From a virus: 28,154 nucleotides of DNA. The notes under the pieces were generated by a model, which had not been told where the DNA came from, did no database searches, and was given only the letters and a program-made list of their open reading frames with translations. A program made the translations under genes and the position numbers. Positions 2,184-28,154 of the stretch are shown here, piece after piece; within the stretch, counting starts at the first letter, position 1; each line of letters begins with the position of its first letter. The DNA is taken from the IMG/VR virus record IMGVR_UViG_3300049216_000624, positions 1 through 28,154 of that record; one strand, written 5' to 3'.

Positions 2184-2184
2184 C

Positions 2185-2213
2185 TTGACATAATGTGTTA
2201 GCAGGTGTATCAT
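2185..2213 (+). promoter_or_regulatory. Sigma70-like promoter with internal TGTTAGC
   Basis: TTGACA at 2185-2190 and TATCAT at 2208-2213 are separated by exactly 17 bases, close to the ideal sigma70 arrangement. It begins just after the helicase stop codon and would start transcripts near 2220, upstream of the start at 2244. The spacer contains TGTTAGC (2196-2202), the heptamer repeated through the window, so a protein binding there would block polymerase. Confidence 0.75.
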
Positions 2214-2243
2214 ACGTTACATCATCACACTTGGAGAGCCGAC

Positions 2244-2627
2244 ATGTCTAATCAACTGGATAAATTCGTTGCTGCTTACATCAAGTTGCGTGACGCCAAG
2301 GCGGCTCTCGCAGCAAAGTATAAAGAACAGCTTGTACCGATCGAGACCGCTATGGGGAAGATCGAAGCGGCGCTCTTGCAAACCCTGAATAGCCAGGGCG
2401 CGCAGAGCGTAAAGACGCCGGAGGGCACTGTCTACAAGACATCGCGGACCAGCGCGACAGCTTCCGAGTGGGACACCTTCCTCGCCTGGGTGCGCGAGAA
2501 TGAGCATTGGAACTTTCTGGAGCGCCGTGTTAGCAAGACGGCGGTCGAGGAGTACCGCACCGAGTTCCAAGATATCCCTCCCGGCATCTCTGTCCGTGAG
2601 GAAGTCACCGTCAACATCCGTCGCTAA
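2244..2627 (+). CDS. Conserved phage replication-region protein, unknown function
   Basis: This 127-residue protein is predicted helical in its first half (Lys/Ala/Glu-rich, about residues 1-50) and mixed in its second half, with a segment reading SVKTPEGTVYKTS near 55-67 and a terminal VTVNIRR. The pattern resembles a small conserved protein often found between helicase and ssDNA-binding-type genes in short-tailed phages; I do not know a proven function. I chose the ATG at 2244 because GGAGA precedes it at good spacing and because the in-frame ATG at 2205 lies inside the -10 element of the promoter at 2185-2213. It is followed 11 bases later by the next gene, so the two are likely co-transcribed. 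Confidence 0.75.
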   Translation: MSNQLDKFVAAYIKLRDAKAALAAKYKEQLVPIETAMGKIEAALLQTLNSQGAQSVKTPEGTVYKTSRTSATASEWDTFLAWVRENEHWNFLERRVSKTAVEEYRTEFQDIPPGISVREEVTVNIRR

Positions 2628-2638
2628 TAGGGGCCGAC

Positions 2639-3649
2639 ATGAACAACATCGTACCATTCGAGCAAGGCGGTCTTCCCGCCCACTTACAGGGCAAGCCTGT
2701 AGATAACACCGAGTTCTCCTCCGGCGTCGCCGGGGGCTATGCGGTCCTGTCGCTTAAGGGCAAGGTCTGGCACATCGTCCAGCACGGTGAGCGCACCCTC
2801 GTCACCCGGCCGGATGATCCGAACGAGCCCGCCACCAGCCTGCTGGTCGTGCTGCTGCGCGCCAACAAGCACCTGTCGAAGCTGTATTATAAGAACGGCC
2901 ACGTCGAGGGGTCGACCGAGAAGCCGGACTGCTATTCCAACGACGGGATCACCCCGGCGCTGGACGCGCAGGAGCGCCAGGCCGAGAAGTGTGCCGTGTG
3001 CCCGCACAACGCCTGGGGCTCGAAGGTCTCCGAGAACGGGTCCAAGGTGAAAGCCTGCTCGGACAGCCGCCGCGTGGCGGTCTGCCCCGCCGGATCGCCT
3101 GACGCCCCGATGCTCCTGCGCGTGCCGGCGGCCAGCCTGCGCGACCTGGGGGCTTATGCCGGCATGCTCGCCAAGCGCGGCGCGGCGGTGAACGCCGTCG
3201 TCACCCGCATGTCGTTCGACCATTCGGTCGCGTACCCCAAGCTGGTGTTCAAGCCGGAGGGGTGGCTCGATGCCGATGCCTACTCTCAGGTTCTTGAGGC
3301 GACGAACAGCGATCTGGTCGAGCAGATCGTCGCGGTCGGCACGGGTATCGAGACGGGTGAAGCGCCTGAGCCCGACCCGCTGGGTGAAGCTCCGGCGCAT
3401 GTGAAGGCTGCCGCCACGCCCGCGCCTGTGGCCACCAAGCCCGTTGCCACCCAGGCAGCTACCCCTGCCAAGACCACCACCTCCAGCGCGGCAGCCGCGG
3501 CGTTCGGTGGGGTCAAGCAGGCGGCCCCTGCGGCCAAACCTGAGCCTGAGAGGCAGGCCCCGAGCGCGGATATCGACGAGGGGCTGGGCGACATCCTAGC
3601 GGGTGCCAACGAGGCCCTGGCTAGCGTCCTAGCCGATCTGGACAATTAA
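2639..3649 (+). CDS. Candidate phage ssDNA-binding protein with Cys cluster
   Basis: The 336-residue protein has an N-terminal globular part (about 1-230), a low-complexity Ala/Pro/Thr/Lys linker (about 245-305), and a strongly acidic, hydrophobic end (from about 310, including DIDEGLGDIL and finishing in ADLDN). Cysteines at 98, 118, 121, 140 and 149, including CAVCPHNAWGSK, could bind zinc. A folded DNA-binding core, flexible linker and acidic tip is the architecture of single-stranded DNA-binding proteins, whose tails recruit replication enzymes. The position between the helicase and the primase-helicase fits. The SSB role is inference from architecture and context; no OB-fold signature can be proven by eye. 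Confidence 0.6.
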   Translation: MNNIVPFEQGGLPAHLQGKPVDNTEFSSGVAGGYAVLSLKGKVWHIVQHGERTLVTRPDDPNEPATSLLVVLLRANKHLSKLYYKNGHVEGSTEKPDCYSNDGITPALDAQERQAEKCAVCPHNAWGSKVSENGSKVKACSDSRRVAVCPAGSPDAPMLLRVPAASLRDLGAYAGMLAKRGAAVNAVVTRMSFDHSVAYPKLVFKPEGWLDADAYSQVLEATNSDLVEQIVAVGTGIETGEAPEPDPLGEAPAHVKAAATPAPVATKPVATQAATPAKTTTSSAAAAAFGGVKQAAPAAKPEPERQAPSADIDEGLGDILAGANEALASVLADLDN

Positions 3650-3657
3650 GGCTCTCA

Positions 3658-3687
3658 CCCCGCCACCCTCACACGGTGGCGGGGTTT
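3658..3687 (+). terminator. Terminator-like hairpin after the candidate SSB gene
   Basis: CCCCGCCACC (3658-3667) pairs perfectly with GGTGGCGGGG (3675-3684) around a 7-nt loop and is followed by only TTT, then CG. The stem is very stable but the T tract is short, so it probably attenuates rather than fully stops transcription into the HTH gene. It lies 9 bases after the stop codon of the upstream gene. Confidence 0.7.
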
Positions 3688-3703
3688 CGTCCGGGGAAAC
3701 ACC

Positions 3704-3985
3704 ATGCACGACGACATCGAACTGTTCCGCCAAGCGTCCCTGACGCCGGCAGATGTAGCTGACCTTCTCAACGTGAGCCGCGTCACAGGGAGCCGCTGGC
3801 TCAACGGGCACTTCCAACCGCACGCTCTCATCCGAGATCGGGTCTCGGACCTGGCAGGTCGGGTTAAAAATTTGTTAGATAACGGTAGCCTCCCCCTCGC
3901 CACCGCCGCTAAATCTAGTGGTCGGTACGCTGCACTCCGCAGCATGTTGTATGGCGACAACCCGACCGGCCCGAGCGAAGTGTAA
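3704..3985 (+). CDS. Small helix-turn-helix DNA-binding protein
   Basis: This 93-residue protein contains an HTH-like segment at about residues 12-36: LTPADVADLLNVSRVTGSRW followed by a short tail, with the spacing of an XRE/Cro-like or MerR-like recognition helix. The rest is Ala/Ser/Leu-rich and unassigned. The ATG is preceded by GGGGAAA at usable spacing. It lies between a terminator-like hairpin and the primase-helicase gene, so its expression may be set apart from the upstream genes. It is the only plausible sequence-specific regulator in the window and is therefore a candidate for binding the palindrome at 605-618 or the dispersed TGTTAGC sites. That link is inference. Confidence 0.7.
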   Translation: MHDDIELFRQASLTPADVADLLNVSRVTGSRWLNGHFQPHALIRDRVSDLAGRVKNLLDNGSLPLATAAKSSGRYAALRSMLYGDNPTGPSEV

Positions 3986-4055
3986 GCAATAAAAAATCAA
4001 GGCTGGCGCTAACACTTTTCGCCTGATACCCTGCCTCCCCCACCGGAGATCGCCA
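3986..4055 (+). promoter_or_regulatory. Leader of the primase-helicase gene
   Basis: This 70-base gap contains an A-rich run, one GCTAACA site (4008-4014) and GGAG seven bases before the TTG start. A TGATAC hexamer lies near 4024, but no convincing -35 partner is visible, so I do not call a promoter. Confidence 0.35.
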
Positions 4056-6914
4056 TTGAATACCCAGGAATTTCTTGAGGCGATTGTGCCTGCGGGCTCA
4101 AACGTCGCCATCGCCATGCTCCGTCCTGACGGGACGATGGGCCAGAAGTTTTTCCCCACCCATGCCGAGGCCGCCGCGTTCGTCGCCAAGGCCATCCCTG
4201 CAAACATCCCGGTCTATCACGGCTGCGCAGGCTACGGGCCGGAGTCCGGTGGACGTAAGGCGGAGAACGTTACCGCCATCGGCGCGCTCTGGCTCGACAT
4301 AGATGTCGGCCCATCGAAGCCGTACCAAAATAAAAACGATGCTTTTATCGCGCTCGCTAATTTCGTAACGACGCTGGGTATGCCTAAGCCTTTGGTGGTT
4401 GATAGCGGCTATGGGCTGCACGTTTACTGGCCGCTGGCGCGGGCCGTCACGCGGGCCGAGTGGTTGCCGGTGGCCCGAGCCCTCAAGTCTGCCGCCGTGG
4501 CGCTGGGCCTGGGCGCTGACCCAACACGCACGGCCGACGCCGCCAGCGTCCTGCGGCCGGTCGGCACGTTCAACCGGAAAGACCCGGCCAACCCCAAGCC
4601 CGTCCGGTTCGCCGCAGGGTACGACGCGCACTACCTGCTAACACACTATCACACAATCTTGGGCGTCGAGCCCGACCCGCTGGGCGACATGCCGGCGCAC
4701 ATCCAGCGCAACACCACCATGAACGCAGACTTCTCGGCGGGCACCACAGGCTCCGGCGACGCTGCACAGTTGGATGATGTGCTCGCGGTCTGCGGGCAGC
4801 TACGGGCCATGCGCGACGCCCCCGAGAGCCAGAGCTATCCCGAGTGGTATAGTTGTCTGGGGGTGCTGGCCTTCTGTGAGGGTGGCGAGGATATCGCGCA
4901 CGAGTGGAGCGCCGGCCATCCCGGCTATCGCCGGGCGCAAACTCAGAAGTTCCTTGATAAATGGCAGACACTTACGGGCGGCGCGACCTGCGCGAAATTT
5001 AAATCGGACAACCCCGCCGGATGCGCAGGCTGTACCTTCACGGGCAAGTCCCCGCTTGGCGCACCGCGCAAACAGATCGTCGTCCACACCCTGGCCGATG
5101 GCACCACGATATCCCAAGCCGTGCGCAAATCGGTCGGCGACCCGGCGGGCTACGGCACGTCGGATCAGGGTATCTCCCGCACATACAAGGACGACTCCGG
5201 CGCATGGGCGAACGAGTTAATCTGCACCCGGTTGTTCCGCCCCATTGCAGCAATAAATACAAGCACCCAGCAAGGCATTGGCGTTGCGCATCACGTTGAA
5301 TTTGAGGTAATCTATCAGAAAGCTGGGGGTGTTACTCAGCGTAATACCTTCACGATACCGGGCGACACGCTCGCGAAACAGCAAGGCTTCCTTGAGGCGA
5401 TCGGAAAGCATTTGATATACCCTGCACCAAACAAGGAACGCTTCGTCCACGAATACGCCAAAGCGTATGTGATGAAGCTTCACTCTGAGAAGGACGACAT
5501 CAAGAGCGTCGATCACTTCGGCTGGCATGACGATGACTTCGTAGTGGGCCGCACGGTCTACAAGGCTGACGGTACCAATGAGGAGGCCGTGCTGATGGGC
5601 AGTGCCGTCAGCTTGGGCGGGAACCTGGGGCCGATGACCAACGACGCTCATGCCTGGGTGGATGCGGTGGATAAGGTGATGCAGCTTCCGGGCAACGAGG
5701 CGATGCAGTTCGCTCTACTCTGTTCTTTGGCTGCGCCGATCTGGGCTTTTTCACACGACGTACCTGGCGTGATGGTCCACTACTACTCGCCCGACAGTGG
5801 CCGTGGTAAAACCACCGCCCAGCGCATCGGTCTGTCTGTCTGGGGCCGGCAGGACCGGATGATGCTCACCGGCAACGGTGCCACCCCTAACGCCTTCGTC
5901 GCCACCGTCAGCACCTACAGCAACCTGCCAGTGGCCTACGATGAGTTGACGATCTCTAAGACCTTCACCCCTATGGACCTGCTGTACCGGGTGTCCCAGG
6001 GCAACGAAAAGACCCGGATGACCAGCAACGCCGTGCTGAGGGAAGTCACCGCCTCCTGGCGCACCATCGTCATGAGCACCGCCAACAACAGCATGTCGTC
6101 CCAGATCAAGGGCGAGATGGCGAACACAACCGGCGGCCGGGCTCGGCTGTTCGAGGTGCGGATCGGCGAGCGGGCTGAGGTGCCGGACGCTCTCAGGGTG
6201 TTCAATACCATCTATGAGAATGGCGGAACGATGGTTCCGATCTACGCGCCGTATCTGGTTGCTAACCGTAAGCAGCTAACAGATGAAGTCTTCGCAACCC
6301 GTGAGGCGCTAACAGATAAACTTAATTTTTCCAGCGATGAGCGCATGTGGCATCACTTGTTCGCGAGCGTACTGGTCACCTACAAGCATGTAAAAAAGTT
6401 GGGCATGATCCGGTTCAACTCCGACCGCCTGCTTGTCTGGATGGTGGCGCGGTTGGCCGAGAACCGCAAAGACCTGCGCGCACAAAAGGCTGATTACCTT
6501 GATGTATTTGCTGACTTCATGAACAGCATCGCGCAAAGCTGGCTGGTTACAACAGGGATCGGTAACGCCGTGAAGGCAGATGGCCGCGAGGATACTCACG
6601 TTATTAAAGACCCATCGCGTGAACTTCTCGTCCGTGTCGTGTACCCAGAGAAGCCTGGTGATCCAGCCTACTTCGAGGTCGCACAGAAGACGATCGAGGC
6701 ATGGGGACGCAAGGCGGGCGTTGACATAACTGAGCTTAAGGCGTTACTGATTTCTAAATCTTTATTTAACCGCAGCCGTAAAGATCGGCTCGGCAGGGGC
6801 GTGCGTAAGTGGTCGAGCGGGTTGCCGACCACGAATTGGGAAATAGACTTGTCTGCGATCGTTGATGCCCGCAGCCTTGGACGTTTGAATTTGATTTCGG
6901 GAGGAAAGATATGA
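4056..6914 (+). CDS. Primase-helicase: AEP-like primase fused to DUF927-type ATPase
   Basis: The 952-residue protein joins two replication activities. The N-terminal part resembles archaeo-eukaryotic-type primases: metal-binding DID at 81-83 in LWLDIDVG, SGYGLHVYW at 117-125, and DPTRTADAASVLRPVGT from 155. A Cys-containing linker follows (C312, C323, C326). The C-terminal part is a DUF927/SF3-like ATPase with Walker A PDSGRGKTT at 579-587, Walker B-like VAYDE at 626-630 and a TGGRAR stretch at 692-697 that may hold an arginine finger. It should unwind the origin or fork and lay primers. The start is TTG at 4056, supported by GGAG seven bases upstream; the next in-frame Met is at residue 21. 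The stop overlaps the following start (ATGA). Confidence 0.9.
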   Translation: MNTQEFLEAIVPAGSNVAIAMLRPDGTMGQKFFPTHAEAAAFVAKAIPANIPVYHGCAGYGPESGGRKAENVTAIGALWLDIDVGPSKPYQNKNDAFIALANFVTTLGMPKPLVVDSGYGLHVYWPLARAVTRAEWLPVARALKSAAVALGLGADPTRTADAASVLRPVGTFNRKDPANPKPVRFAAGYDAHYLLTHYHTILGVEPDPLGDMPAHIQRNTTMNADFSAGTTGSGDAAQLDDVLAVCGQLRAMRDAPESQSYPEWYSCLGVLAFCEGGEDIAHEWSAGHPGYRRAQTQKFLDKWQTLTGGATCAKFKSDNPAGCAGCTFTGKSPLGAPRKQIVVHTLADGTTISQAVRKSVGDPAGYGTSDQGISRTYKDDSGAWANELICTRLFRPIAAINTSTQQGIGVAHHVEFEVIYQKAGGVTQRNTFTIPGDTLAKQQGFLEAIGKHLIYPAPNKERFVHEYAKAYVMKLHSEKDDIKSVDHFGWHDDDFVVGRTVYKADGTNEEAVLMGSAVSLGGNLGPMTNDAHAWVDAVDKVMQLPGNEAMQFALLCSLAAPIWAFSHDVPGVMVHYYSPDSGRGKTTAQRIGLSVWGRQDRMMLTGNGATPNAFVATVSTYSNLPVAYDELTISKTFTPMDLLYRVSQGNEKTRMTSNAVLREVTASWRTIVMSTANNSMSSQIKGEMANTTGGRARLFEVRIGERAEVPDALRVFNTIYENGGTMVPIYAPYLVANRKQLTDEVFATREALTDKLNFSSDERMWHHLFASVLVTYKHVKKLGMIRFNSDRLLVWMVARLAENRKDLRAQKADYLDVFADFMNSIAQSWLVTTGIGNAVKADGREDTHVIKDPSRELLVRVVYPEKPGDPAYFEVAQKTIEAWGRKAGVDITELKALLISKSLFNRSRKDRLGRGVRKWSSGLPTTNWEIDLSAIVDARSLGRLNLISGGKI

Positions 6915-7102
6915 TCCAGATCGACAGCATCGACGCCGCGCTTAACAAAATCCTCGCCGAACATAACCTCGACCTCGATGCGCTACCGTCTCTCGCTGGT
7001 GTTAGCGAGACGGTTAATGAGATGGATGACGAATACTTTGGAGAGGAAGCACACGCAATGCGCGAAGTTACTGCGCCCGCCCTTCATCCATCCCTTGGCT
7101 GA
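6911..7102 (+). CDS. Small acidic protein, unknown
   Basis: This 63-residue ORF starts at an ATG overlapping the primase-helicase stop codon (ATGA), with GGAGG upstream, so it is translationally coupled. It is acidic in the middle (EMDDEYFGEEAH at about 37-48) and resembles no family I know. Its last 35 bases overlap the 3' end of the oppositely oriented 2066-aa gene. Good ribosome-binding signals argue that it is real. Confidence 0.6.
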   Translation: MIQIDSIDAALNKILAEHNLDLDALPSLAGVSETVNEMDDEYFGEEAHAMREVTAPALHPSLG

Positions 7103-10100
7103 ACTCGGTAAGCGGGCTGAACCCGGCGATGTCCTGGCCCTTGAGCGACACGCCCCCGCGCAGCATCGCGGCACTCTGGTAATAAGTCTGCACGGCTTTC
7201 TGTAGCGCCTCGGGCTTGATCGCGTGGTTCGACTGATTGGCCTGATAGCGATCCTTATTGAACTGCTGGATGTTATCCAGCGCCGCGCCAACATCTCCGC
7301 CCTCGGTTACAGCCCGCAGGTATTCCTGAGTGAGTGCGGTCTGACGATCCTGTAGCTGCTGCTGCTCGGTATAAAGATACTCCCTCGCCGCCTCAGCCCG
7401 CTCGACCTTCTGCGGCTGGAAGCCCATCGCCTGAGCGAAGACATCAGAGTCGGTGATGTCTTCCGGGGCGACCTCAAGCTGGCCCGAGGTCGAGCGCACG
7501 CCGTAGGTTGCGAACCGTGCGGCCTTCGATACATCCCGCATCGCCTTGGGCATAATGTCTTCGGCTGCGCGCCAGGTGTTCCCGTCGCGGGTGTCCTGGT
7601 ACGCATCGAACACCTGGCCGATCAGCGAGCCGGTCGAGCCGAGCACCATGCCTCCAACATATTGCAGGAAGTTGTCTGAGTTGATCTCGCCGGTCGGGTT
7701 GCCGGGTGAGAACAGATCGCCGAGGCCGATACGGTTGGTCACGTCGGCCGGTAAAATGTTCTTGATGATCGGCAGCGAAAACAGCAACCCGCTGTCGATC
7801 GCCTGAGCCATCGGTGCGCCGAACTCTTTGGTCATCATCTCGCGGAAGCTGGCGTCGGCGTCGAACGGCTCGTCGTGGTTGCCGACGAACTGGTTGTAGA
7901 TATCCATCAGGCCGGTCGCCACCCCGTATAGCGGCATACCCATCACGCCGGCAGCTAGGAAGTGGGTCGCCATGAGGCCGAGGAAGGTGCGGCGGGCGAC
8001 GCTGCGCTGGTTCGGGTCGTGGTCCTTGAACGCCTTCACGGCATTGTTAACAAGTTCATACATCATGTTCTGCTGATATTTCTTAAACTGGAACATGATT
8101 TTCTTCGGTACGAACCCGCCAGGCTTACTGAACAGGCCAGAGGTGTTAGCTTGGTTGTAGTCGGTGTGTGAGCGTGTCACCATGTCCTCGGCGTGCATGG
8201 TGCTGGCGTATTGGCCGGGCGTCATCGCTTGCGCGATCGCATCGTCCTTGAAGGTCTGGCGGAAGCGGTTGTAGGCGTCCATGTCCAGGGGTGCCACAGT
8301 CTTCTCCTGGTCCATCCGGTAGGCAGCGAGCGCCGTGATGATCCGGTTATAGCGTTCAGTATGATGTGGCATATAGCTGGCAGCAACCATTGCGTTCCGG
8401 CCAGCCGCCGACAGGCCGCCCGCACCTACCAACTCGTCGAGCCGCTGGCGCGCGTCCGTGTCCCCGAAGTGCCCTTGTGCATCGAGGTGGGAGAGCATCA
8501 GCTTCTCGCCAGCCGTCTTGCCGAACGCCGTGATGTCGTCGTGCGCCGGGCCGTTACCCGAGAAGCGGCTCTGGATATCTCCCGCCACGCCGTGGCTCCC
8601 GAAGTACCTGCCGCTGATGTCTTTCATCGCCGTGCCCAGAGCCATCCATGAGCGGGCCTGACCATGGAAAGCGCCAAGCATTTGCGTGGTGACGAGCGGG
8701 GTCTGCATGAAGTGCATGAAGGTGAACGCTGGCGAGAACGCAAGCTGGTAAACATAGCCCACGTTGTTGATGAAGTTCTGGATCGGGGTGTGATCGCCGC
8801 TCAAGCTGGACTCGTAGTTCTCCTTAAGCTGGCGGTACACCTGGTCGAGCCGCGAGTTGGTCTTGCTCTTGGCGCGGGCGTCGGCGCGGATTTCCTGCAA
8901 CGCGGCGCGGGCCTTGGCACCGGACTTTAGGTTGGCGATCATACGGGCGTTGCGCTTGGCGCTGATGTTCAGCGCCTCGCCCATATCGTCGATGTGACCA
9001 GCTACGCCCTCGGCTTTGATCGTCTTCTTCATGATGCTGCCTTCGGGCAACATGCGAAGCATGATCTGACGGATTTCATCTACCTGACCGCGGAGTAGAT
9101 CAGCCGCATCACGGTCGCCCGCGCGCTCCAGCGCCGAGGCTTTGCTCTCGATCGAGTCCTGGAGTTTCGCGCCGAACTCCTCGAAGCCAGCGTGGCCCTG
9201 CATCCCGTACTCGTCGGAGCGGAAACGCTTGGTGTCGTAGCCTTCCTTGCTGATGTCGGAGGCAAACTTATCCGCCTCACCGATGGACTTGAACGCCCGC
9301 ACGATCCGGTCGCCGTTCGCGTGCTGCGCCACAGCGATGTGCTCACCCTCGCGGACGTAAGGCACGTAGACCTTGAGGTGGCCGAACTGGCGGATCACAC
9401 TCTCGATGTACGCCGCAGCCTTTGGCGCGTCGGCAGCGAGGTCTTCGGCGGCCGACTTGAACGCATCTACGATGGTGGCGCGGTCGTCCTTGAAGTGCTG
9501 AATGAATTGATCGTAGGTCGCGCGGCCGGCTGGCGAGAGCTTGGCGTACTCTGCGGCCAGTGCCGAGCCAGGCTCGCTCGCCAGGTCTTGCATCTCACGG
9601 GACTGCACCAGCAACTTACTGGTTGCCTCACGCTCGGCCACGGTCAGGTGACGGTATTGATCGAGCGGCGCGACCGCGCGCTGGGCGGCGTTGCTGATGT
9701 CGGTCTGTTTGCGGCTCATGATATCCACGAGGGTCCGCGTGGCCGGCAGGTCTTTCTCGTACCCGTCGCGAAGCTGGCGGTTGGTGATGGCGTGGATGAT
9801 CGCGCCCTGCACCTTCTCAACAGCCGTGCGGCCGGCAATCTCGCTCCGCTCTTTCAGCCGGTCGGCGTACTGGCGCGTGCTGTCAGTGGTCGAGCGAAAT
9901 CGTGGCGCGCTCGCGAGAGCATCCCCCGGCGCGCTGCGCGCGGCTTTGGTAGCTGCCTGGAGAATGCGAACCACGTCGCCGTCCGAATAGTTTTTGACGA
10001 GGCCCATGCGGCGGCCGATGTCGCGCACCACCCCGAGCACCCGGCGGAACGCGGCTTGCAGTGGGTAAGGCTTGGCTGGGCCTGACTCCTGCATCTGCGC

Positions 10101-13100
10101 CAGCGCCTCCTCCGCAGCGCGGGCCTGGAGGTGCGGACTGTCCCGGTACATGCTGGGGTTCTCGCTCATCCATGCGTCAGCGGCGCGGCGGATCGTGGGG
10201 TTGGTTTTGTAGATGTCCCCCATCACCTCGTCGAGTTTGGAGCCGAACTGTTTGGCGAGGCCGTAATGGCCAAGTGCCTCGTGGAACAGCGTGGCTTTGG
10301 CGTCGGCGGGGGTGCTGTGGTTGTCGGCGATGAGGTGGACGGTGCCGTTCTCGTAGATGCCTTTGGCGGTCTGACCCACTTCGCGCAGGTGCGCGGGCAG
10401 GTCGGCAGCGTGCTGCACCACGTTGACCTTCGGCCCCTGATTGTTGAAGCCGGTCTCATCCACCACCTTCTGCACATCTTCGCGGGCCATGCCGGTGGGC
10501 TGGTCATCGGTGCCACGACGGCGGGCGGATGCGGTACGACGCTGGGCCGAGGCCAGGATCGCCTGGGCTTGGGAGATGTTATCATCGCCGCCCTTGTTGA
10601 GCAGGTCGCTCACCTCGGCGTGGTCGGATGCCTCAAGCGCGCCGGAGCGATGACCTTCGTCGGCGATGTCCTGCAAGTTCTTGACGCGAGTATCGGTCTT
10701 CGCGTTCGAGCGTTTCACCGCGGCGGTGAGCGCATCATCCACCGCCGGGTTCTCTATCTCGGCCAGCCGGTCGCGCAGTTCGCCGTGCTGCGCTGGATCG
10801 TCAACCATCTTCTGGAGACGCTGGCTCTCATCGTCAGTGATCTTGTCCGCGTCTACAGCCTTGCCGATGCGGTCGTTCAGGTCGGCGGTGTCGAGCGCGG
10901 CCTTCACCGAGGGGTGCGCCGGGTCTTTCTGGAGCAGGCGCGAGAGGCCCGCGTGCTCCTGCGGGTCCACCTTACCGTCAGCGAGGGACTCGTTTAGGCG
11001 CTCCTGCAATGGCGAGAGGTTCTTGGTGCGGAGCGGGACTACAGTTTTTTGCGTCCCCTCGGCCGGGCCACGTCCCGCAACTGCTTGCGGAGTGGGTTGG
11101 GCAACTTCTCCTCCCCGTCCTTGCGCTTCGACTTGCTGGTCGGCTGGTTCAGCCGGTCCTGCACTGGCGGGTGCCGGCGTGGCAAGTCCTTCCTCAGATG
11201 GAACACCATCGGTTTTCTCCTGCATACCGCCAACGAGTTTACGAGCGACGGCGAATTTACGAGCGACGAGCGCCTGCGTCACGGCACGCACGTCCTCAAG
11301 GCTGGCTTTGCCGGTGGAGTGCAGGTCGATCGCTTGGCGCACCAGGTCTTGTGAGGTCTTACCCTGCACCATGGCACCGAGGCCCTGCGCCTCATCGCGC
11401 TCGCCGGCATGGATGCGCGCCTGCTGGGCGGTCACTTTGTCCGCAGCCTGGTTGATAACCTGTTGTGCAGCGTCGAGCGCGGCTGAGTTCTGGGCGATGC
11501 CCTTGGCGCTGATCGAGCGGTTGGCCTCAATCGCCTGCCTGTGGTCGTCGAGCACGGCCTGGGCCGCGTCGATATCGCCGGACATGAGATGCTGTGAGAG
11601 CGATGAGGCGAGGTTGACGAGGCCGGAGGTGGACGGGAGCAGCTTGCCGCCCGTGGGTATGGCCGCAGCCTGCAAGGTGTGGAGGATCGTGCCGGTGGTG
11701 GGGATGCTGGCGTCGTGCGCCGCAGCCTGGGCCTTGGGTAGCACGCCCAGACCTTGGACGACAGGTGTGCTGTCGGGGCCGCCGCGCGCCTCGGGCGCGG
11801 CAGGGAACAGGTCGTTCGATACCGGCGGCGCGGCCGGTGCGGCGGGGGGCTTGGGTGCGGTTGACTGCTCCAGCGGCAGCGACATCTGCCCGGCGGGCGG
11901 GGGTGTTTGGGTGGGCGCGGTCGGGAACAGATCGCCCTGGGGTGCCGTGATGGCCGCCGGGGTCGGGGCTTGTGGAGCAACCTGCTGCGGTGCGTTGGGT
12001 AACAGATCGCCCTGTGTGCCGGGTGGCCCCTGCACAGTGGGTAGTGCCGCCTGATGCTGTGCGGCGATCTGCTGCACCTGCTGATCGTTGTACCTCTGGC
12101 CTGCCTGCTGGAGCGCCGAGCTTGGCAGGAAGGCGCGTCCCTGGCTGTCTACGGGGATCGTAGGTGCGGGTGCTGGTGCCGGGAGGGCGAGCATGGGCTG
12201 GGGGGCTGGCGCTTGTGCTTGGGCAGCCTGCGCGGCCTGGTTCGCTTGGGCCTGCTGGACCATCGGGTCAAGCTGTGCCTGACCAAGCTGTGGTTCGTTG
12301 TGGATACCGAGCGCGCCAACCGCGCCCATGCCACCACCCACCAGCGCGCCGCCGGCAAATGCCTGGGCAAGCTGATCGAAACCGTCAGGGCTCTGGTATG
12401 GGTTGGCCCCCACCGAGGCGTCAGACGCCTGCTCGATGCCGGTCTGTCCAACCGCCACAGCGCCCTGCTTAACCGCGTTGCCGGCAACGGTTCCACCGGC
12501 GCGGAGGAGCGCGCTGTTGCCCCCTGCCAGCTCGAAGCCATGCACCAGCGCGCCGCCAGGGCCGACCGTGTTGAGCAGGGCGTCCGGCAGGCCCAAGGCC
12601 ACGGCGCTGAGGAGATCAGTATGCCCGCCCGATGCTTGCTGGTTCTGGAGCAGATTGCCGATCGTGGGAGCCGCTGTTGCCAGGGTGCCCACACCTGCGC
12701 GGGCGATGTTATTGCCGATTGCCTGAGCAACAGCATCGGTGGCTTGGCTGCTGGCGGCGGCCTCGGGCACGCCCGCTGCGACGAGCCGCCCCGCGCCGTT
12801 CTCAATGGCACTCTTGCCGAAGGTGCGAAGGATAGAGCCACCCAGCGCACCGTCGAGTGGAACGGCTGCACCGCCCGTTGCGCCATCTGCGGCGGCGATC
12901 AGTGCGGCCGTGGGCGCGGCAGATGCCAGTGCGTGGATACTGAACCCGAGCGCGCTGCCGAGGCCATGCACGTCGCTGATGTTCTGTGTCAGCCCAGACC
13001 GCGCGGAGGCCGCGTCGGACACCGCCTGGGTCTCCTGAGCCATCAGGTCTAGGGTGTTGTTCGGAGCGCCTAGCCGATCTCCAATGGCTCCACCGAGGGC

Positions 13101-13268: not shown

Positions 13269-13271
13269 TCG

Positions 13272-16351: not shown

Positions 16352-16773
16352 TATCGCGCCCTCATGCGTTCGATCAGCGCCGCCCCGGCGCTTTCTGTAA
16401 GCACGTATGTTAGCCTGTTAGCAGGTTCTTGGGAATAGGTTTCTTCACCTGCCAACGCAAACCCCGCCTTTTCCAGAAACCGCCTTGCTGGCAGGTTGTT
16501 GTCATATGTTACGGCTAGGGTGCGCTTGCACTTGAACCCCCCGTAGATGATCGAGGCGGCTGTGAGCACCGCCCGGCGGCTGCACCAGAGCGGCGTGGTT
16601 GAGGCTGCGCCTAAGTACGCATAGTCGCCCTCGACCCAATCGTAGATGCAGGCCGCGCCGATCAGGCGTTCCTTGTTGAATACGCCGAACGAGATTACCC
16701 GCTCGACGGGGCCACCACCTGGCGAGTTGGCTTGTATCCAGGGGAGGTAGTCACCGAAGACGATCACGCTCAT
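16351..16773 (-). CDS. GNAT-family N-acetyltransferase in the virion operon
   Basis: The 140-residue protein has the fold signature of GNAT acyltransferases: a beta-strand pair (VISFGVFNKERLIGAACIYDW, about 26-46), a helix region after SRRAVLTAA, then VTYDNNLPARRFLEKAGFALAGE (about 88-110), typical of the acetyl-CoA-binding half. Substrate is unknown. Small GNAT-like proteins occur in late operons of several podoviruses next to internal virion proteins, so it may be packaged or may modify virion or host proteins; this is inference. The ATG overlaps the TGA of the upstream fibre gene (ATGA) with GAGAGG upstream. Two TGTTAGC sites (16408, 16416) lie within its coding sequence and one (16773) at its start. 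Confidence 0.8.
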   Translation of the reverse strand: MSVIVFGDYLPWIQANSPGGGPVERVISFGVFNKERLIGAACIYDWVEGDYAYLGAASTTPLWCSRRAVLTAASIIYGGFKCKRTLAVTYDNNLPARRFLEKAGFALAGEETYSQEPANRLTYVLTESAGAALIERMRAR

Positions 16774-18695
16774 GTTAGCCTCTCGATGATCTCGTTTATG
16801 ACCGATATGATTTCTAGGTTCGTGGCGGTGGTGGGCAGCGCGGTGGGTGTGTTGCTCCCGGTGGCGTTGCCGTTCATCTGCTCGACCGACGCCTTCAACG
16901 CCTGGAGGAAGGCGTACATCGCGGACGTTGCCTGCGGTGGCACCGAAGGTATCTGGGTGCTGGTGGCGACGGGCGTGGTGGGTGCCTGGGTGCCGGTGCT
17001 GAGGGTGACGTAGCCGGTCGCCACGCCGGAGGCGCTGGGTAGTGGGGTCGTGGTGTTGATGGTGCCCGTCGCCTGGGTCGTTGAGGCGTGGGCGGTAGGG
17101 ACCGGCGTGACCGCGCTGATGGCGGCCGAGGCACCTCCCGCCGAGCCAGCGGCGGCTGCGGTCGGTATGGGTGTCGTGGTGTGGATGGTCGCCGAGGCTG
17201 CTGAGGCGGTGGCTACGACCGCTGCGGTAGGTACTGGCGTCGTCGCGCCGATGACTGCTTTGGCGGTGGCACTGGCGGCTGCCGACGCTGTGGGCAGCGG
17301 CGTGGTCGTTGCGATCGCGGCAGCGGCAGTCGCTGAGCCATGTGCTGAGACTGTGGGTAGCGGTGTGGTGGCGGATGCTGCGGCTTGGGTCGTTGCGCTG
17401 GCGGCTGCTGAGACTGTGGGCTTGGGCGTGACCGCGCCGATGGCCGCCTGAGTTGTGGCGCTCGCGGCGGCCGAGACCGTGGGGATCGGTGTGGTGGCTT
17501 TGATGAACGTGAACCCGGCGAAGTAGCCGGCGATCGAGTCCATGCCGATGCCTGTGCCGCCGATGGGTGTCGCGGTGGGGGGCGCATAGGGTGCTGAGCC
17601 GCTGGTGGCCACCGCGGACACGGTGGGCTTGGGGGTCGTTGCTGACGCCGCTGCTTTGGTCGTGTTCGAGCCGATAGCAGCAGCGGTTGGCATGGGGGTC
17701 GTGGCTGCTACGGCCGCGTCGGTGGTGGCGCTCCCGACTGCTGAGGCGGTGGGTACGGGTGTGGTGGCCGCGACCGTACCGCTCGATCCCAAGGGTAGGT
17801 AGGTGATGACAATGATACCGTTGGCACCAGCGCCGCCGTTATCGTTGCCGGTGCCGCTCTCGCCCGCCGAGCCGCCGCCGCCGCCATACAGGCCGCCGTT
17901 GCCGCCGTTGGCGGGTGTGGAGTTGTTGCTGAGGCCCCCTGAGCCACCGCCACCACCGGCACCTGCGACCTGGCTAAGCGAGCTTGTCCACTCCACGCCA
18001 TTGCCGCCAGCGCCGCCCGTACCTGCCTGGTTGGTGCCGCCGTTCGACCCGAAGCCACCACCACCGCCGCCGCCATTGGTGCCCGCCCCGCCGTTGATCG
18101 AGGACGACGTGCCCCCCGCGCCCGCGCCCGAACCGGAGTAGTTATTGCCGCCGTTAGGGGGTGTTGACGTGGGTGAGGCTGTGCCGCCGCCGCCACCGCC
18201 CCCGCCGGTCCCTTGATAGTTGAAGCCGGATGCGCCCGAGTTCGCGCCCGCGCCGTTCGGGCCAGCCGCGCCGCCGCCGCCGGTATAAGCTGAGGCGTTG
18301 CCACCACCGCCACCATAGAGCGTGGTGCCGACCGCGCCCGTGGTCGAGCCGCCTTGGCCGTAGCTATTATCCCCGCCGTAGCCGCCATTTGAGCCGACCG
18401 ACGAGGTGGCGAGGGAGGTGCCGTTGAACCAGGTGCCGCCGCCGTTGCCTGAGAGCGTGTTGCTGCTCTGAATATATCCAGTGCCGCCTACGCCCACCGT
18501 GAAGTTGATGGTGGCACCTGGGGTAAGCGCAAGGTTCGTGATCTTCGAATAACCGCCACCACCGCCACCACGGCTCGACAACGCGCCACCGCCACCACCT
18601 GCACCTAGGGTTTCGATAGAGTTGGACGCGCTGTTCCAATCGGCAGGGACCGCCCAAGTTCCCGTCGTGTAAAGGAATATGACCTTGTTGGTCAT
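16770..18695 (-). CDS. Tail fibre with Gly-rich head and Thr-Pro repeat stalk
   Basis: The 641-residue protein has three parts. Residues 1-300 are a glycine-rich domain starting with TGTWAVPADWNSASNSIETLG, a type common in phage receptor-binding tips, with many GGGGG runs. Residues about 310-570 are about 11 tandem repeats of 21 residues with consensus TTPxPTxSAxxSATTxAAxxA. A final segment of about 70 residues is helical near the end. It should be a fibre or tail-associated adhesion protein. The repeats suggest an extended stalk or a surface for protein interaction. No Shine-Dalgarno is obvious, only six bases from the upstream stop, so coupling is likely. Fibre identity is well supported by the Gly-rich domain; receptor unknown. 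Confidence 0.78.
   Translation of the reverse strand: MTNKVIFLYTTGTWAVPADWNSASNSIETLGAGGGGGALSSRGGGGGGYSKITNLALTPGATINFTVGVGGTGYIQSSNTLSGNGGGTWFNGTSLATSSVGSNGGYGGDNSYGQGGSTTGAVGTTLYGGGGGNASAYTGGGGAAGPNGAGANSGASGFNYQGTGGGGGGGGTASPTSTPPNGGNNYSGSGAGAGGTSSSINGGAGTNGGGGGGGFGSNGGTNQAGTGGAGGNGVEWTSSLSQVAGAGGGGGSGGLSNNSTPANGGNGGLYGGGGGSAGESGTGNDNGGAGANGIIVITYLPLGSSGTVAATTPVPTASAVGSATTDAAVAATTPMPTAAAIGSNTTKAAASATTPKPTVSAVATSGSAPYAPPTATPIGGTGIGMDSIAGYFAGFTFIKATTPIPTVSAAASATTQAAIGAVTPKPTVSAAASATTQAAASATTPLPTVSAHGSATAAAAIATTTPLPTASAAASATAKAVIGATTPVPTAAVVATASAASATIHTTTPIPTAAAAGSAGGASAAISAVTPVPTAHASTTQATGTINTTTPLPSASGVATGYVTLSTGTQAPTTPVATSTQIPSVPPQATSAMYAFLQALKASVEQMNGNATGSNTPTALPTTATNLEIISVINEIIERLT
16995..17770 (-). 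repeat. Tandem 63-bp (21-aa) coding repeats
   Basis: About eleven degenerate units of 63 bases, in frame, encode TTP(V/M/K/I/L)PT followed by Ala/Ser-rich residues. The third unit from the N-terminal side is interrupted by about 27 extra residues containing GIGMDSIAGYFAGFTF. Units are similar but not identical at DNA level, so the array looks old or under selection rather than freshly amplified. Confidence 0.8.
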
Positions 18696-18701
18696 GCGGG
18701 C

Positions 18702-19205: not shown

Positions 19206-19208
19206 CGC

Positions 19209-20258: not shown

Positions 20259-20261
20259 TTA

Positions 20262-20675: not shown

Positions 20676-20687
20676 GGGCTTTGTCCT

Positions 20688-22508: not shown

Positions 22509-22511
22509 GTG

Positions 22512-22939: not shown

Positions 22940-22941
22940 GC

Positions 22942-23133
22942 TTAGCTCTGCGGGGCTTTGCCGCCATAGGGGCCGTCGAGCAGCACGCCTTTGACGCTGG
23001 AGATTTTCTTCGCACCGGCTTTCTTGCCGTTGAGTTGCAGCATGTCAGATGTCGGCACGCCGTCGCCGCCACTCATCTTGGTGCCCATCGGGTTAACGGG
23101 CTTCATCTTGGTGGTTCCGCTGAGGGACTTCAT
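22942..23133 (-). CDS. Small Lys/Gly-rich phage protein
   Basis: This 63-residue protein (MKSLSGTTKMKPVNPMG at the start) is basic and Gly/Lys-rich, with no cysteines and no membrane segment. AAAGG precedes the ATG. Small basic proteins of this kind are common in late operons and may be minor virion components or DNA-associated. I recognise no family. Confidence 0.55.
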   Translation of the reverse strand: MKSLSGTTKMKPVNPMGTKMSGGDGVPTSDMLQLNGKKAGAKKISSVKGVLLDGPYGGKAPQS

Positions 23134-23199
23134 GGCAGGAGCCTTTCATAAATCTGTGAGCATGTGTTAGCAGATTGCCTGTTGGTAGGCCAGAACTAT
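23134..23199 (-). promoter_or_regulatory. Intergenic gap with a TGTTAGC site
   Basis: This is the largest gap in the late operon (66 bases). It holds one TGTTAGC heptamer (23165-23171) in the extended form ATGTGTTAGCAG shared with the promoter spacer near 2196. No promoter hexamers are clear on the minus strand. Confidence 0.4.
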
Positions 23200-23493: not shown

Positions 23494-23523
23494 CTAGTGC
23501 CGTCACCTTCTGGGCTAGAGTAG

Positions 23524-23658: not shown

Positions 23659-23672
23659 CGTTGTATCCCTTC

Positions 23673-24923: not shown

Positions 24924-24924
24924 G

Positions 24925-25629
24925 TTAGACGATCCTCGGTGGGCGCGCGATGATCGGCCCACGGGTCAAGCCCTGGTTGCGAGCCATCTTTGCGCGGCTG
25001 ATGCCGGTCTGGAAATAAGCGCGGAACTTCGCCGCTGCGCGCTCGTTGTAGTAGGGTTGGTTCGGCGTATCGTGCAGCCTGGCGCGTGCCCCGAAGGCGA
25101 TGATCTCGAACCACTTCTCGTACAGCGACGCATCAACCGTCGTGGCCGAGCGCACGGGTCGTAAGCTGGCGATGGATGTCACCGCGTCGGGTTCAGCGAC
25201 GATCGGCCATGGCGCGATAATCACTGAGCTATTTACGATCTGTGTGTAGCATGACGGGATGCCGCTGACCTGCCTCCAGTCGAACCCGTAGGTCTCAGCG
25301 ATCTGCTCCATTGGCAGACCTTTGAGTTCGTACCCGTCATAGGCCAAGTACATGATCTGAGAGACTTCGTAGGCCCCACCTGTGGGAAGCGAAAGCACAT
25401 ACTCGGCTGTTTGGCCTGTCAGGTTGATCCCGGCGGGTTCATACAGCAGCCAGTTGGTACGCTCGCAGAACTCGATTACGGCCGAGGCAATCGCCGCCAC
25501 GGCGACAAGATCGGCGCAGCCGTTCACGTAGGGCAGCACGTCCGGCAGGAATTGTGTGTAAGGGACTTCATTGGTGCCGACCGCGCTGAGGCTGCCGATC
25601 ACGCCCTCATATTGGGTGTTGCCACTCAT
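24925..25629 (-). CDS. Second head-tail adaptor/connector protein
   Basis: The 234-residue protein follows the adaptor gene with a stop-start overlap (ATGA). It contains FLPDVLPYVNGCADLVAVAAI (about 28-48), EFCERTNWLLYEP and a C-terminal helix (about 175-220, KWFEIIAFGARARLHD then FRAYFQTGISRAKMARNQG). This arrangement is typical of podovirus connector or tail tubular proteins that seal the portal and join it to the tail. Its place between the adaptor and the tail genes supports the role. The family is not named with certainty. Confidence 0.7.
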   Translation of the reverse strand: MSGNTQYEGVIGSLSAVGTNEVPYTQFLPDVLPYVNGCADLVAVAAIASAVIEFCERTNWLLYEPAGINLTGQTAEYVLSLPTGGAYEVSQIMYLAYDGYELKGLPMEQIAETYGFDWRQVSGIPSCYTQIVNSSVIIAPWPIVAEPDAVTSIASLRPVRSATTVDASLYEKWFEIIAFGARARLHDTPNQPYYNERAAAKFRAYFQTGISRAKMARNQGLTRGPIIARPPRIV

Positions 25630-26312
25630 TCCTCAGCCGCCTTGGTTTGGGGGTTGAAGCCTGCAAGCGTGGCGTTGATGTTCTCCAGGCTGAGGTCTTT
25701 CGCATTGCTGCCGACGAAGGCCATGAATGACTGCATGTACATCTGCGCGTATTGGAGGCCGGCCGCCGCATCGCTGTCCTTCGCGTGCGCGCGGGCCATC
25801 ACATAATCGAACAGCGGGGTCTGATAGATATCTGGCAGCGCAAGGTTCTGCGTGTCGGATGTCAACTCGGTCGGCATCTGTGCGTAGTTGATCTCGACAT
25901 AGCCGGTGCCGTCATTCGGCGGATACACATAGTAGCTGCGCGGGTCTTCATTGTTGAAGACATAGTTCTGTACGGTCGGCGATGCTGGCGCGGAGTGCCA
26001 GCCTGGCAGGATTGTATCCAGCAGATCGCGGCGCACCAGGCGCGTGGCGGCACCGGGGGTTTGCCCATCCGTGCCCATGTTCCGGTACATGCTGAGGAAG
26101 GCGTAGCCGCCGGGTGGGATCGCCTGCCGCGTTCCGGCGCTTAGTTGAAGCGGCACGACGACAGAGGCGGTGCTGGCGTCTGCTCCGGCGATCGTGCGCT
26201 GACCATCTGACAGCCAGCCCAAAAGCTCGGCGTCGGTCCAGCGTTGAACCACGCCGTTGTCTGCAAGCTGGTTGCGAACCTTAGTGAGAACGACAGACGC
26301 GGCAACGGACAT
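25626..26312 (-). CDS. Phage adaptor protein (DUF6682-like)
   Basis: The 228-residue protein has the layout of a conserved phage adaptor: QRWTDAELLGWLSDGQRTIAG (about 23-43), ATRLVRRDLLDTILPGWH, DPRSYYVYPPNDGTGYVEINYA and IYQTPLFDYVMARAHAKDSDAAAG. In this family the protein binds under the portal ring. CGAGG precedes the ATG at five bases. It follows the capsid gene after a strong hairpin (26329-26352) and overlaps the next gene by four bases. Confidence 0.78.
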   Translation of the reverse strand: MSVAASVVLTKVRNQLADNGVVQRWTDAELLGWLSDGQRTIAGADASTASVVVPLQLSAGTRQAIPPGGYAFLSMYRNMGTDGQTPGAATRLVRRDLLDTILPGWHSAPASPTVQNYVFNNEDPRSYYVYPPNDGTGYVEINYAQMPTELTSDTQNLALPDIYQTPLFDYVMARAHAKDSDAAAGLQYAQMYMQSFMAFVGSNAKDLSLENINATLAGFNPQTKAAEE

Positions 26313-26328
26313 TTGAACCTCGATAGTA

Positions 26329-26352
26329 CCGGGCGGGAATTACCCCGCCCGG
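26329..26352 (-). terminator. GC-only hairpin after the capsid gene
   Basis: CCGGGCGGG (26329-26337) pairs with CCCGCCCGG (26344-26352) around a 6-nt loop. On the minus strand it lies between the major capsid stop and the adaptor start and lacks a T tract, so it is more likely an attenuator or 3' mRNA stabiliser that raises capsid mRNA over downstream genes than a full terminator. Confidence 0.65.
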
Positions 26353-26362
26353 ATTGTGGGCT

Positions 26363-27337
26363 TTACTGTACGAGGGCCATCGCCAGAGCGGTCGGCTTCA
26401 AGGTCTGGAAGCCGAAGACGTTGAGGCCGCGGAGCAGGCTGCCGAAGTCGTTGGGGTTCGGCAGCGTCTCCACCTTCTCAATCTGAGAGGCGAAGGTGAT
26501 CGCGGCTTTGTGGCCGGCGAGGATGGCGGTACGCGCCAGCGCGCCGGTCAGGGTGTTGCCGAAGAAGTCCTGGCCCGCGAGGGCTTTCGGCAGGTTGTTG
26601 CTGACGTAGATCGTGAAGCGGTCGATCATCCCGATCTTGCCGTTACGCAGGATCGACTGGCTATCGCCGGTCACATATGCCTGAGACAGCGGGGACTGCA
26701 TCAGGATGTTGCGGAAGTGCGGGGTGATGATGATCCAGCGATCTTCGGTCGGAACGTTCTGCTCGTCGAGTACACTGGACATCCCGGTCACGAGTGGGAG
26801 TACCGTGGTCGAGGAGAGGACCACGGGGGCCAGATCGGTCCCGAGGTTGACGGACTGCGAGAAGACGCCGGCCGTGGCACCTTTGTTGTTCGCGTCGCCG
26901 GTATTGTAGCTATACAGCAGAACATACTTGTCGATGTTGATCGCAAGCTGCTTCGCAGCGTCGCTGGAGAACATGTCCATCAGGTTCGGCTGCGACTGCG
27001 CTGCGAGCACATCGCTGACCTGAACGGAGAACGACCGGGCCTGGTTGATCTGTAGCTCGATCGTGTTCGGGGTCGGCACCTGATAGGTCAGGCCCGAGCC
27101 GATGGTGTAGGTGGAGATCGCAACGTCGGGGACGTTGTTGATGATGACGCTATCGCCAAGACCCTTGATCTCGCCCTCGTAATCGGTGTTGCAGATTTCA
27201 CCGAATACCGTGGTGGCATAGAACTTAACGTTCAGCTTGCCAGCCCACAGGGTGGGGATGAAGGTGCCGGAATAGCTCGGGGTCGTGTTGAACGGCGCGG
27301 CTACGGGGGTAGTGGCGGCGGGGGTAATTGTGGTCAT
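26363..27337 (-). CDS. Major capsid protein, P22-coat-like family
   Basis: The 324-residue protein shows the conserved beginning of the P22 gene 5-like coat family: FIPTLWAGKLNVKFYATTVFG (about 26-46), DYEGEIKGLGDSVIINNVPDV (about 53-73) and QINQARSFSVQVSDVLAAQ (about 95-113). It forms the HK97-fold shell. It lies between the scaffold and adaptor genes, as expected. GAGGAA precedes the ATG at five bases, but that Shine-Dalgarno is part of a perfect hairpin (27343-27379). No signal or cleavage site is apparent. Confidence 0.9.
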   Translation of the reverse strand: MTTITPAATTPVAAPFNTTPSYSGTFIPTLWAGKLNVKFYATTVFGEICNTDYEGEIKGLGDSVIINNVPDVAISTYTIGSGLTYQVPTPNTIELQINQARSFSVQVSDVLAAQSQPNLMDMFSSDAAKQLAINIDKYVLLYSYNTGDANNKGATAGVFSQSVNLGTDLAPVVLSSTTVLPLVTGMSSVLDEQNVPTEDRWIIITPHFRNILMQSPLSQAYVTGDSQSILRNGKIGMIDRFTIYVSNNLPKALAGQDFFGNTLTGALARTAILAGHKAAITFASQIEKVETLPNPNDFGSLLRGLNVFGFQTLKPTALAMALVQ

Positions 27338-27342
27338 CTGTT

Positions 27343-27379
27343 CCTCGGTTGCGTGGTGTTAGTGGGGACGCAACCGAGG
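27343..27379 (-). promoter_or_regulatory. Hairpin sequestering the capsid gene Shine-Dalgarno
   Basis: CCTCGGTTGCG (27343-27353) and CGCAACCGAGG (27369-27379) form a perfect 11-bp stem with a 15-nt loop. On the minus-strand mRNA the downstream arm ends with the GAGG that is the capsid Shine-Dalgarno, so folding would hide it. The upstream gene stops about ten bases before the stem, so a terminating ribosome could open it. Confidence 0.7.
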
Positions 27380-27389
27380 AAAGGATGTG

Positions 27390-28154
27390 TTAGCGGATCA
27401 TCCCCTTGGCTGCGGCGGCGTTAATCTGGGCTTCGATGTTTGCCTGTTCGCTCTCGCGGCCGCGGTAGTGCCCGCGCGAGACATCATCGTAAAAACGTTT
27501 GACCTGCGCGTGCGTGAACGAAAGCTGCTGCGGTTCGGTCGGCGGTGTCGGCGAACTCTGTGGCGACCGGCCCGGAGATACCTGGCGCTCCAGTTCCGCG
27601 CGTGCGGGGTTGGGTGCCGGCGGCTGGGGTTGCGGGTGCTGCTGCATCGGGGCCTGCTGCCCGCTCACCGCCTTATAAGCGTTGAAGATTTGCGCGAGCC
27701 GGTTGGCGTCAGAGTTCTGCAAGGCTTGGTTCAACAGTGCTTGGCGCTGGATGCCCGTGAAACCTTCCTCCTCCGCGAGCCAAGCATGGAAGCCGGGCTG
27801 AACGTCGATCTGCTGGTAATCGGGGACAAGCTGGCCAAGGCGCTGGAGGCAAAGCTCCTGCTCGGTCTTCTGCTGCTTGGCGACCGTCGTTCCGGTTTCG
27901 CCGCGAAGGGATACGATCTCGCCGCGTAGCTCTGCTATGTGGCCGCTAATGTTCGATAGGTACGAACGGGCGACATCATTGGCGATACGCTGGACGAACT
28001 CTGCCAGGTCTGCGCCGAAAGTTTCGATATCCTTCGGGGACGCTGGGGTAGTCGTTGTCGGTTCACGCGCGGGCTCCGGGGCCGTGGCTTTCAGCCTTTC
28101 GATCTCGGCGAGCGTTTCGCGAAGCTGGCCCTGTAGCTTGGGCACTTCGGCGTT
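27390..28154 (-). CDS. Scaffold/capsid assembly protein, 5' end outside the window
   Basis: At least 254 residues are visible; the frame stays open to the window edge, and the GTG at 28145 is probably internal, so the N-terminus is missing. The protein is charged and helical, with a long coiled-coil candidate (HIAELRGEIVSLRGETGTTV region), a Pro/Gln-rich linker and a C-terminal KRFYDDVSRGHYRGRE helix near the end, the type of basic helix that scaffolds use to bind coat protein. It directly precedes the capsid gene. Identity is inferred from position, coiled coils and this C-terminal pattern. Confidence 0.75.
   Translation of the reverse strand, partial: NAEVPKLQGQLRETLAEIERLKATAPEPAREPTTTTPASPKDIETFGADLAEFVQRIANDVARSYLSNISGHIAELRGEIVSLRGETGTTVAKQQKTEQELCLQRLGQLVPDYQQIDVQPGFHAWLAEEEGFTGIQRQALLNQALQNSDANRLAQIFNAYKAVSGQQAPMQQHPQPQPPAPNPARAELERQVSPGRSPQSSPTPPTEPQQLSFTHAQVKRFYDDVSRGHYRGRESEQANIEAQINAAAAKGMIR

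Follow-up and report, generated by a model that had tools for sequence, protein, structure and literature searches.

Genome-wide dispersed repressor sites have so far been well studied mainly in actinobacteriophages. The operators and stoperators of Cluster A phages such as L5 and Bxb1 are asymmetric sites of 13-14 bp, present in 20-30 copies per genome and located mostly in short gaps, and they are read by a two-domain repressor, 183 aa long in L5 (PMC6550527, PMC9283540). Cluster K phages contain Start-Associated Sequences (SAS), which have a Shine-Dalgarno core, lie 3-7 bp from start codons and are found only in the non-structural half of the genome; in their extended form they are inverted repeats whose consensus is specific to the subcluster (PMC3203893). 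In alphaproteobacterial phages, CtrA sites are read by the host and are clustered at genome ends or in large gaps (PMC9437464). Here we describe the heptamer TGTTAGC (complement GCTAACA), which is dispersed along IMG/VR virus record IMGVR_UViG_3300049216_000624, a contig of 28,154 bp analyzed in its entirety and referred to below as the window. The heptamer is very probably a real regulatory element, and we favor, with modest confidence, the interpretation that a phage-encoded helix-turn-helix (HTH) regulator, probably a repressor, recognizes a DNA operator whose core is TGTTAGC(A). The larger finding is a clade-wide and phage-specific pattern of dispersed words, putatively operators, to which the window heptamer belongs as one branch.

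Abundance of TGTTAGC in the window

The initial annotation counted 13 copies of TGTTAGC or GCTAACA, every one of which is found again by exact-match search with the same coordinate and strand (Table 1), and its estimate of about two copies by chance agrees with 100 dinucleotide shuffles (mean 2.08, sd 1.41, maximum 6), none of which reached 13. TGTTAGC is the top 7-mer in the window (13 copies versus 1.7 and 1.2 expected from order-2 and order-3 Markov models, respectively) and GTGTTAGC is the top 8-mer (8 versus 0.5 and 0.3). Noncoding DNA makes up 2.8% of the window, and three copies are fully contained within it (679 noncoding windows; 0.08 expected, P = 7.5e-5). Several copies had been placed in gaps or at gene starts, and three or four are indeed in noncoding DNA, with those at 4008, 23165 and 27388 in gaps or at gene ends. 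Ten copies are genic, versus 3.05 expected under synonymous-codon resampling (P = 0.0017). These had been said to use the uncommon codons CTA ACA, and CTA does account for 35 of 635 Leu codons. Five of the genic copies read CTA-ACA; the 52 Leu-Thr dipeptides would be expected to yield 0.41 such pairs, and the window genes have five (P = 7e-5). GCTAACA is in the sense strand in 10 of the 13 copies, as first counted, but taken alone this has a P value of 0.09.

A codon-aware ranking of all 7-mers, with noncoding DNA kept fixed, had been suggested as a check on the enrichment; it shows an excess of the heptamer (13 versus 6.1, P = 0.0096), but a rank of only 79. Judged by the measure that the initial annotation set for itself, that the heptamer be among the most enriched words after codon-aware shuffling, the evidence from the window by itself is moderate, and because of this rank the case rests on comparative data. 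The genic copies, the class most in need of a stoperator explanation, are also the statistically weakest class. A suggested extended form, ATGTGTTAGCAG, agrees only in part, with TG-TGTTAGC at 2196, 4637, 23165 and 27388, and the extended form across the clade is TGTTAGCAnnT. An imperfect inverted partner, AAGTGTAAGC, is present at 3978-3987 beside the 4008 copy.

Recurrence of the sites in related phages

Related viral loci, about 160 of them, were collected with capsid and helicase searches. The full relatives were read in two rounds, of five and then of 24 more, and intergenic 7-mers were counted in a pool of 608 intergenic segments from 73 deduplicated relatives. Expected counts are from Markov models, and because the phages are related and not phylogenetically independent, P values across relatives are optimistic. 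TGTTAGC and GTTAGCA are the two highest-scoring intergenic 7-mers (56 versus 11.7 and 54 versus 10.1, respectively), above Shine-Dalgarno and -35 words, and TGTTAGCA is the top intergenic 8-mer (33 versus 2.9). With the window and relatives G001-G004 omitted, TGTTAGC is sixth and GTTAGCA fourth, and 27 genomes contribute. The 53 intergenic sites identified in 31 genomes have in common an A after the core and a T at +10; the 8 bp core and the +10 T are conserved, and a weak inverted half-site, TGCTAACA, abuts the core directly (z 3.8). The sites in relatives are mostly 20-60 nt upstream of start codons, and GCTAACA is in the sense strand in 36 and reversed in 13 (n = 49, P = 0.0014), a bias that is not strict. 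G004, which is syntenic and the closest relative by capsid (65%), carries 13 copies, with 8-9 in intergenic DNA; G001 and G003 have 16 and 7 copies, respectively. Many TGTTAGC matches in AT-richer marine relatives were dropped as operators, as they correspond to GCTAACAC, which is conserved as coding sequence of the capsid gene, and a 28-bp motif obtained by unsupervised expectation-maximisation was discarded after it drifted to A+T-rich DNA.

One copy had been assigned to a promoter spacer, and the site at 2196 does lie between the two hexamers of the sigma-70-type promoter ahead of the Mu-Gam-like gene, the best sigma-70 match found in positions 1-8000. A TTGACA-type element ahead of this gene is retained in most relatives, and the site recurs there too, mostly in or adjoining the same promoter. 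Spacer-position sites are present in G025 (TTGACATGCTGTTAGTCTCACACTATAAT) and G022 (TTGAAGCACTAACACATGTTAGTTATAAT) and, with weaker hexamers, in G018 (TTGACGACTGTTAGCTAGTGGGGTAGTAT) and G004 (TTGACAACCGGCTAACACATAGCGTAAAC); in G001 and G003 the site is directly ahead of the Gam start codon and not in the spacer. A second recurrent place is upstream of the primase gene, as at 4008 in the window and in G027, G028, G030, G035, G039 and G047, with no site at this position in G001, G003 and G004.

Pfam integrases were sought in the full records of the relatives. Genome-wide TGTTAGC enrichment has a median of 3.0 in integrase-positive versus 0.87 in integrase-negative records (P = 0.003), and TGTTAG is present before the Gam-like gene in 8 of 10 integrase-positive versus 2 of 11 integrase-negative phages with the same gene order (P = 0.009). 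The promoter is kept with or without integrase, and the putative TGTTAG operator is mostly in integrase-bearing relatives. When gene content is compared with the presence of the word, integrase alone stands out (10 word-bearing versus 0 other genomes), followed by a family of 175-196 aa (12 versus 4) that has no Pfam or PHROG match. This link between the word and integrase favors a repressor as the reader. Adjoining the integrase of G021 (29909-30166) is a pyocin-activator (PrtN)-like/excisionase-family protein, with homologues in G022, G026 and G037.

Other dispersed words in the clade

Each full record was also scanned for its own intergenic words, and many relatives have a different dispersed intergenic word, often palindromic. 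Rhizobium phage RHph_TM3_14A (L082/L083, MN988472) has 54 copies of GTTACCT in its whole genome versus 3.8 expected; most have the form GTTACCT-n4-AGGTAAC or a degenerate version of it, many are 5-18 nt ahead of start codons, and its dispersed-operator signal is far stronger than that in the window. The dyad ATTTACC-s-GGTAAAT is found in G006 (L101-L103; 20 versus 0.5), GGTTATCCCGGGATAACC in G018 (L263-L265; half-site 25 versus 2.5), AATTGCC-n4-GGCAATT in G023, and GATTGCAC-n2-GTGCAATC in G033. G019 and G020 have dispersed intergenic dyads of their own, and GATTGCACn2GTGCAATC is among the dyads of the six genomes G006, G018, G019, G020, G023 and G033. The words in G028 and G037 are CTAACG-TGTTAGA and TGTTAGT, and the top words in G024, G034, G036, G040 and G041 are Shine-Dalgarno-like, low-complexity or weak. 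Inverted repeats of two half-sites, the form of a dimeric operator, are seen in G018, G006, G023, G033, RHph_TM3_14A and G022 and are weak at the window sites. Words particular to each phage are what would be expected of co-evolving repressor-operator pairs. A broader proposal, which we regard as rather doubtful, is that the clade as a whole (proteobacterial phages with an SNF2 helicase, a Gam-like protein and a DUF927 primase) has genome-wide dispersed operators, with the word switching between phages (TGTTAGC, TGTTAGT, GTTACCTn4AGGTAAC, ATTTACCsGGTAAAT, GGTTATCCCGGGATAACC and others) and with a small, rapidly evolving HTH protein, encoded next to the primase, as the reader; such a system of silencing and immunity would be L5-like and of independent origin, outside the actinobacteriophages.

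Repeats of another kind are present in L031 (1451-1738) and L028 (2477-2724), where tight clusters of TGTCTAATT resemble replication-origin iterons, and in L016 (2166-2742), which has tight iteron-like clusters of TGTCTAATT and TGGATTAAT. In L031 there are also CACACTACCCGCTAGTGTG dyads close to the iteron-like cluster.

Candidate reader proteins

The 93-aa HTH protein encoded at 3704-3985 belongs to a family present in 21 of 31 records, typically adjoining the primase. It is predicted to be a compact HTH (pLDDT 83), and the profile of its family gives a match to the FruR headpiece (E 1.4e-5), so that in both fold and profile similarity it is of the XRE/LacI-headpiece type. The best fold matches are small repressors, none at E <= 0.001, and single-sequence Pfam matches are below the cut-off; viral searches with this protein or the primase as sole query gave no matches. 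We tentatively suggest that it may read TGTTAGC, an assignment about which we are somewhat doubtful; otherwise, a repressor gene in the portion of the prophage that lies beyond this contig would supply the reader.

Other small DNA-binding proteins are encoded in the relatives. G001 encodes a 55-aa Arc-like repressor (10640-10807) with homologues in G002 and G003, and the gene pair containing it begins 38 nt after the TGTTAGC site at G001 10483, making it a possible alternative reader in the G001-G003 branch. In L131 (9681-9884) and similar marine loci an AlpA-type HTH gene immediately follows the helicase gene, with a TGTTTACATGTnAACACA-like dyad ahead of it, close to the start codon. A DnaA-type DNA-binding domain (Bac_DnaA_C, E = 9e-13) makes up most of the small protein encoded by G004 (L089) at 9084-9464.

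Possible roles of the sites

An operator for a DNA-binding regulator is the best explanation, because the short core is in a promoter spacer, is repeated ahead of other genes and is orientation-biased. In a lysogen, a regulator bound to the spacer copy at 2196 would block initiation of the early Gam-primase operon, and the copies in gaps and genes (4008, 23165, 27388, 16408/16416/16773 and others) could reinforce the silencing at a second level, possibly by hindering elongation as L5 stoperators do. The stoperator-like system proposed in the initial annotation has in its favor that the sites are dispersed, asymmetric and strand-biased, are located in a promoter, gaps and genes of a prophage, and are more enriched in integrase-bearing relatives; the words of several relatives are palindromic, however, and relatives in which no integrase was found can have dispersed palindromes too. 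Stoperator-like action is thus plausible by analogy and partly supported, and the description 'dispersed operators, possibly stoperators' appears justified, because the anatomy is L5-like, yet relatives have palindromes and some of these lack a detected integrase.

Several observations weigh against a repressor operator. Besides the low codon-aware rank, the window copies have no clear second half-site, and no TGTTAGC is present ahead of the capsid gene in G001-G004, unlike in the window. G001 and G003 have the word but lack the candidate HTH protein, and phages with other words encode it; its absence from G001 and G003 weakens the case for it as sole reader. G002-G004, the nearest kin among the full records, are enriched for the heptamer, yet in none of them was ParA or an integrase of the tyrosine or serine type detected; a serine integrase or ParA partition was considered as an explanation of enriched integrase-negative phages and none was found. 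Finally, because some integrase-negative phages have even stronger dispersed palindromes (54 copies in RHph_TM3_14A, 20 in G006), the system is not strictly tied to lysogeny.

The low rank, together with the three or so genic copies expected from codon-aware resampling, is what would be seen if genic copies were mostly by-products of composition and codon use and only three or four intergenic copies mattered; we think this unlikely, as the genic copies are significantly in excess and CTA-ACA pairs are 12 times over expectation. The sites could instead bind a phage activator or timing factor of the lytic program, with the spacer copy stimulating or scheduling the early promoter. Phage-specific dispersed intergenic palindromes in relatives without detected integrase (G006, G019, G020, G023, G033 and RHph_TM3_14A) and sites ahead of both early and late genes are consistent with such a role, but a mid-spacer site between near-consensus -35 and -10 hexamers suits a repressor better and relatives with an integrase more often have the TGTTAGC form, and we judge an activator distinctly unlikely.

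We consider it improbable that a host transcription factor reads the sites and couples the prophage to the state of the host, as CtrA does in alphaproteobacterial phages. There is precedent for intergenic host-factor sites in phages (PMC9437464), and the same core is present in divergent phages, but related phages of similar G+C lack TGTTAGC, and because the words differ from phage to phage they better fit co-evolution with a phage protein. Action at the RNA level, in which a translational regulator would recognize GCUAACA in 5' untranslated regions, at a position comparable to that of SAS, seems very improbable: although the sense strand has GCTAACA, close to start codons, in 36 of 49 intergenic sites, the other 13 are reversed and include the promoter copy at 2196, some sites are in a -35/-10 spacer, upstream of the transcript, there is no Rfam match, and loopless perfect dyads such as GGTTATCCCGGGATAACC of G018 are better suited to recognition as DNA.

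Genomic setting of the sites

The 3' end of a tRNA gene, CCA included, can be read on the minus strand at about 411-470, adjoining host-like DNA, and is probably the left attachment site of a prophage; an ARAGORN scan of the window called no complete tRNA. An integrated prophage is suggested because this tRNA 3' end reads at about 411-460. Early genes are on the plus strand to the right of the tRNA end, and late genes are on the minus strand, extending from the gene of a 2066-aa protein, for which a DarB-like match was obtained, to the major capsid gene. The window ends before the right end of the prophage, the expected place of the integrase and perhaps of the repressor. The leader of the capsid gene contains an inverted repeat, and within its 13-nt loop GTGTTAG occurs for a second time, at a distance of 31 nt from the first occurrence. 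We considered whether a conserved RNA or operator element lies ahead of this gene and dropped the idea, as relatives do not share such an element.

Table 1. Genes, promoter and TGTTAGC sites of the window, in order of position.
Feature	Coordinates	Strand	Remarks
SNF2-family helicase	639..2183	+	syntenic anchor
sigma-70-type promoter TTGACA-N17-TATCAT	2185..2213	+	11/12 consensus positions
TGTTAGC	2196..2202	+	-35/-10 spacer of promoter before Gam-like gene; orthologous site in G004, G003, G001
Mu-Gam-like protein	2244..2627	+	first gene after putative operator-bearing promoter
TGTTAGC	2528..2534	+	within Gam-like gene, codons GTT AGC
protein of no assigned function	2639..3649	+	early gene
93-aa HTH protein	3704..3985	+	best candidate reader of TGTTAGC
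GCTAACA	4008..4014	-	between HTH and primase genes, 48 nt ahead of primase start
DUF927 primase/helicase	4056..6914	+	
GCTAACA	4637..4643	-	within primase gene, CTA ACA
GCTAACA	6275..6281	-	within primase gene, CTA ACA
GCTAACA	6308..6314	-	within primase gene, CTA ACA
TGTTAGC	7000..7006	+	within small ORF downstream of primase, GTT AGC
TGTTAGC	8144..8150	+	within 2066-aa late gene; sense strand reads GCT AAC
TGTTAGCC-TGTTAGCA	16408..16422	+	two direct copies, 8-bp spacing; close to end of N-acyltransferase-like gene
TGTTAGC	16773..16779	+	ATGA stop/start overlap of two late genes, CTA ACA TGA
TGTTAGC	23165..23171	+	late-region gap, 38 nt ahead of start of minus-strand gene at 23133
major capsid protein	26363..27337	-	
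20-nt inverted repeat, 90%	27335..27387		leader of major capsid gene
TGTTAGC	27388..27394	+	covers stop codon of upstream gene, about 50 nt ahead of major capsid start

Comparison with known systems

A literature search aimed at TGTTAGC in phage operators found no relevant paper. If the proposed operators are correctly interpreted, they would be a second and probably independent case of genome-wide dispersed repressor sites, in a widespread clade of proteobacterial phages; superinfection-immunity groups could then be predicted from DNA alone, and the link of dispersed operators to temperate life would become testable.

As with the SAS of Cluster K, repeats are found upstream of start codons, and extended SAS resemble the phage-specific palindromes of this clade. 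Unlike SAS, TGTTAGC has no Shine-Dalgarno core and is mostly 20-60 nt rather than 3-7 bp from the start, and it is also found before late genes, within genes and in a promoter spacer. The CtrA sites of alphaproteobacterial phages are likewise intergenic, promoter-associated sites of the transcription-factor type, but the sites described here are spread genome-wide and the word changes between related phages.

The L5/Bxb1-type sites of Cluster A differ in several respects, as the core here measures 7-8 bp, the copy number is 13 in 28 kb, the orientation is looser and several relatives have palindromes; no repressor of the Cluster A-type family was recognized in the window, which is an incomplete prophage, and we do not claim membership in the L5 family of stoperators. 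The likeness lies in many near-identical short sites dispersed above chance, some in promoters and others in short gaps, with a bias toward one orientation, in probably temperate phages as carriers, and in a consensus that varies among related phages (PMC6550527, PMC9283540).

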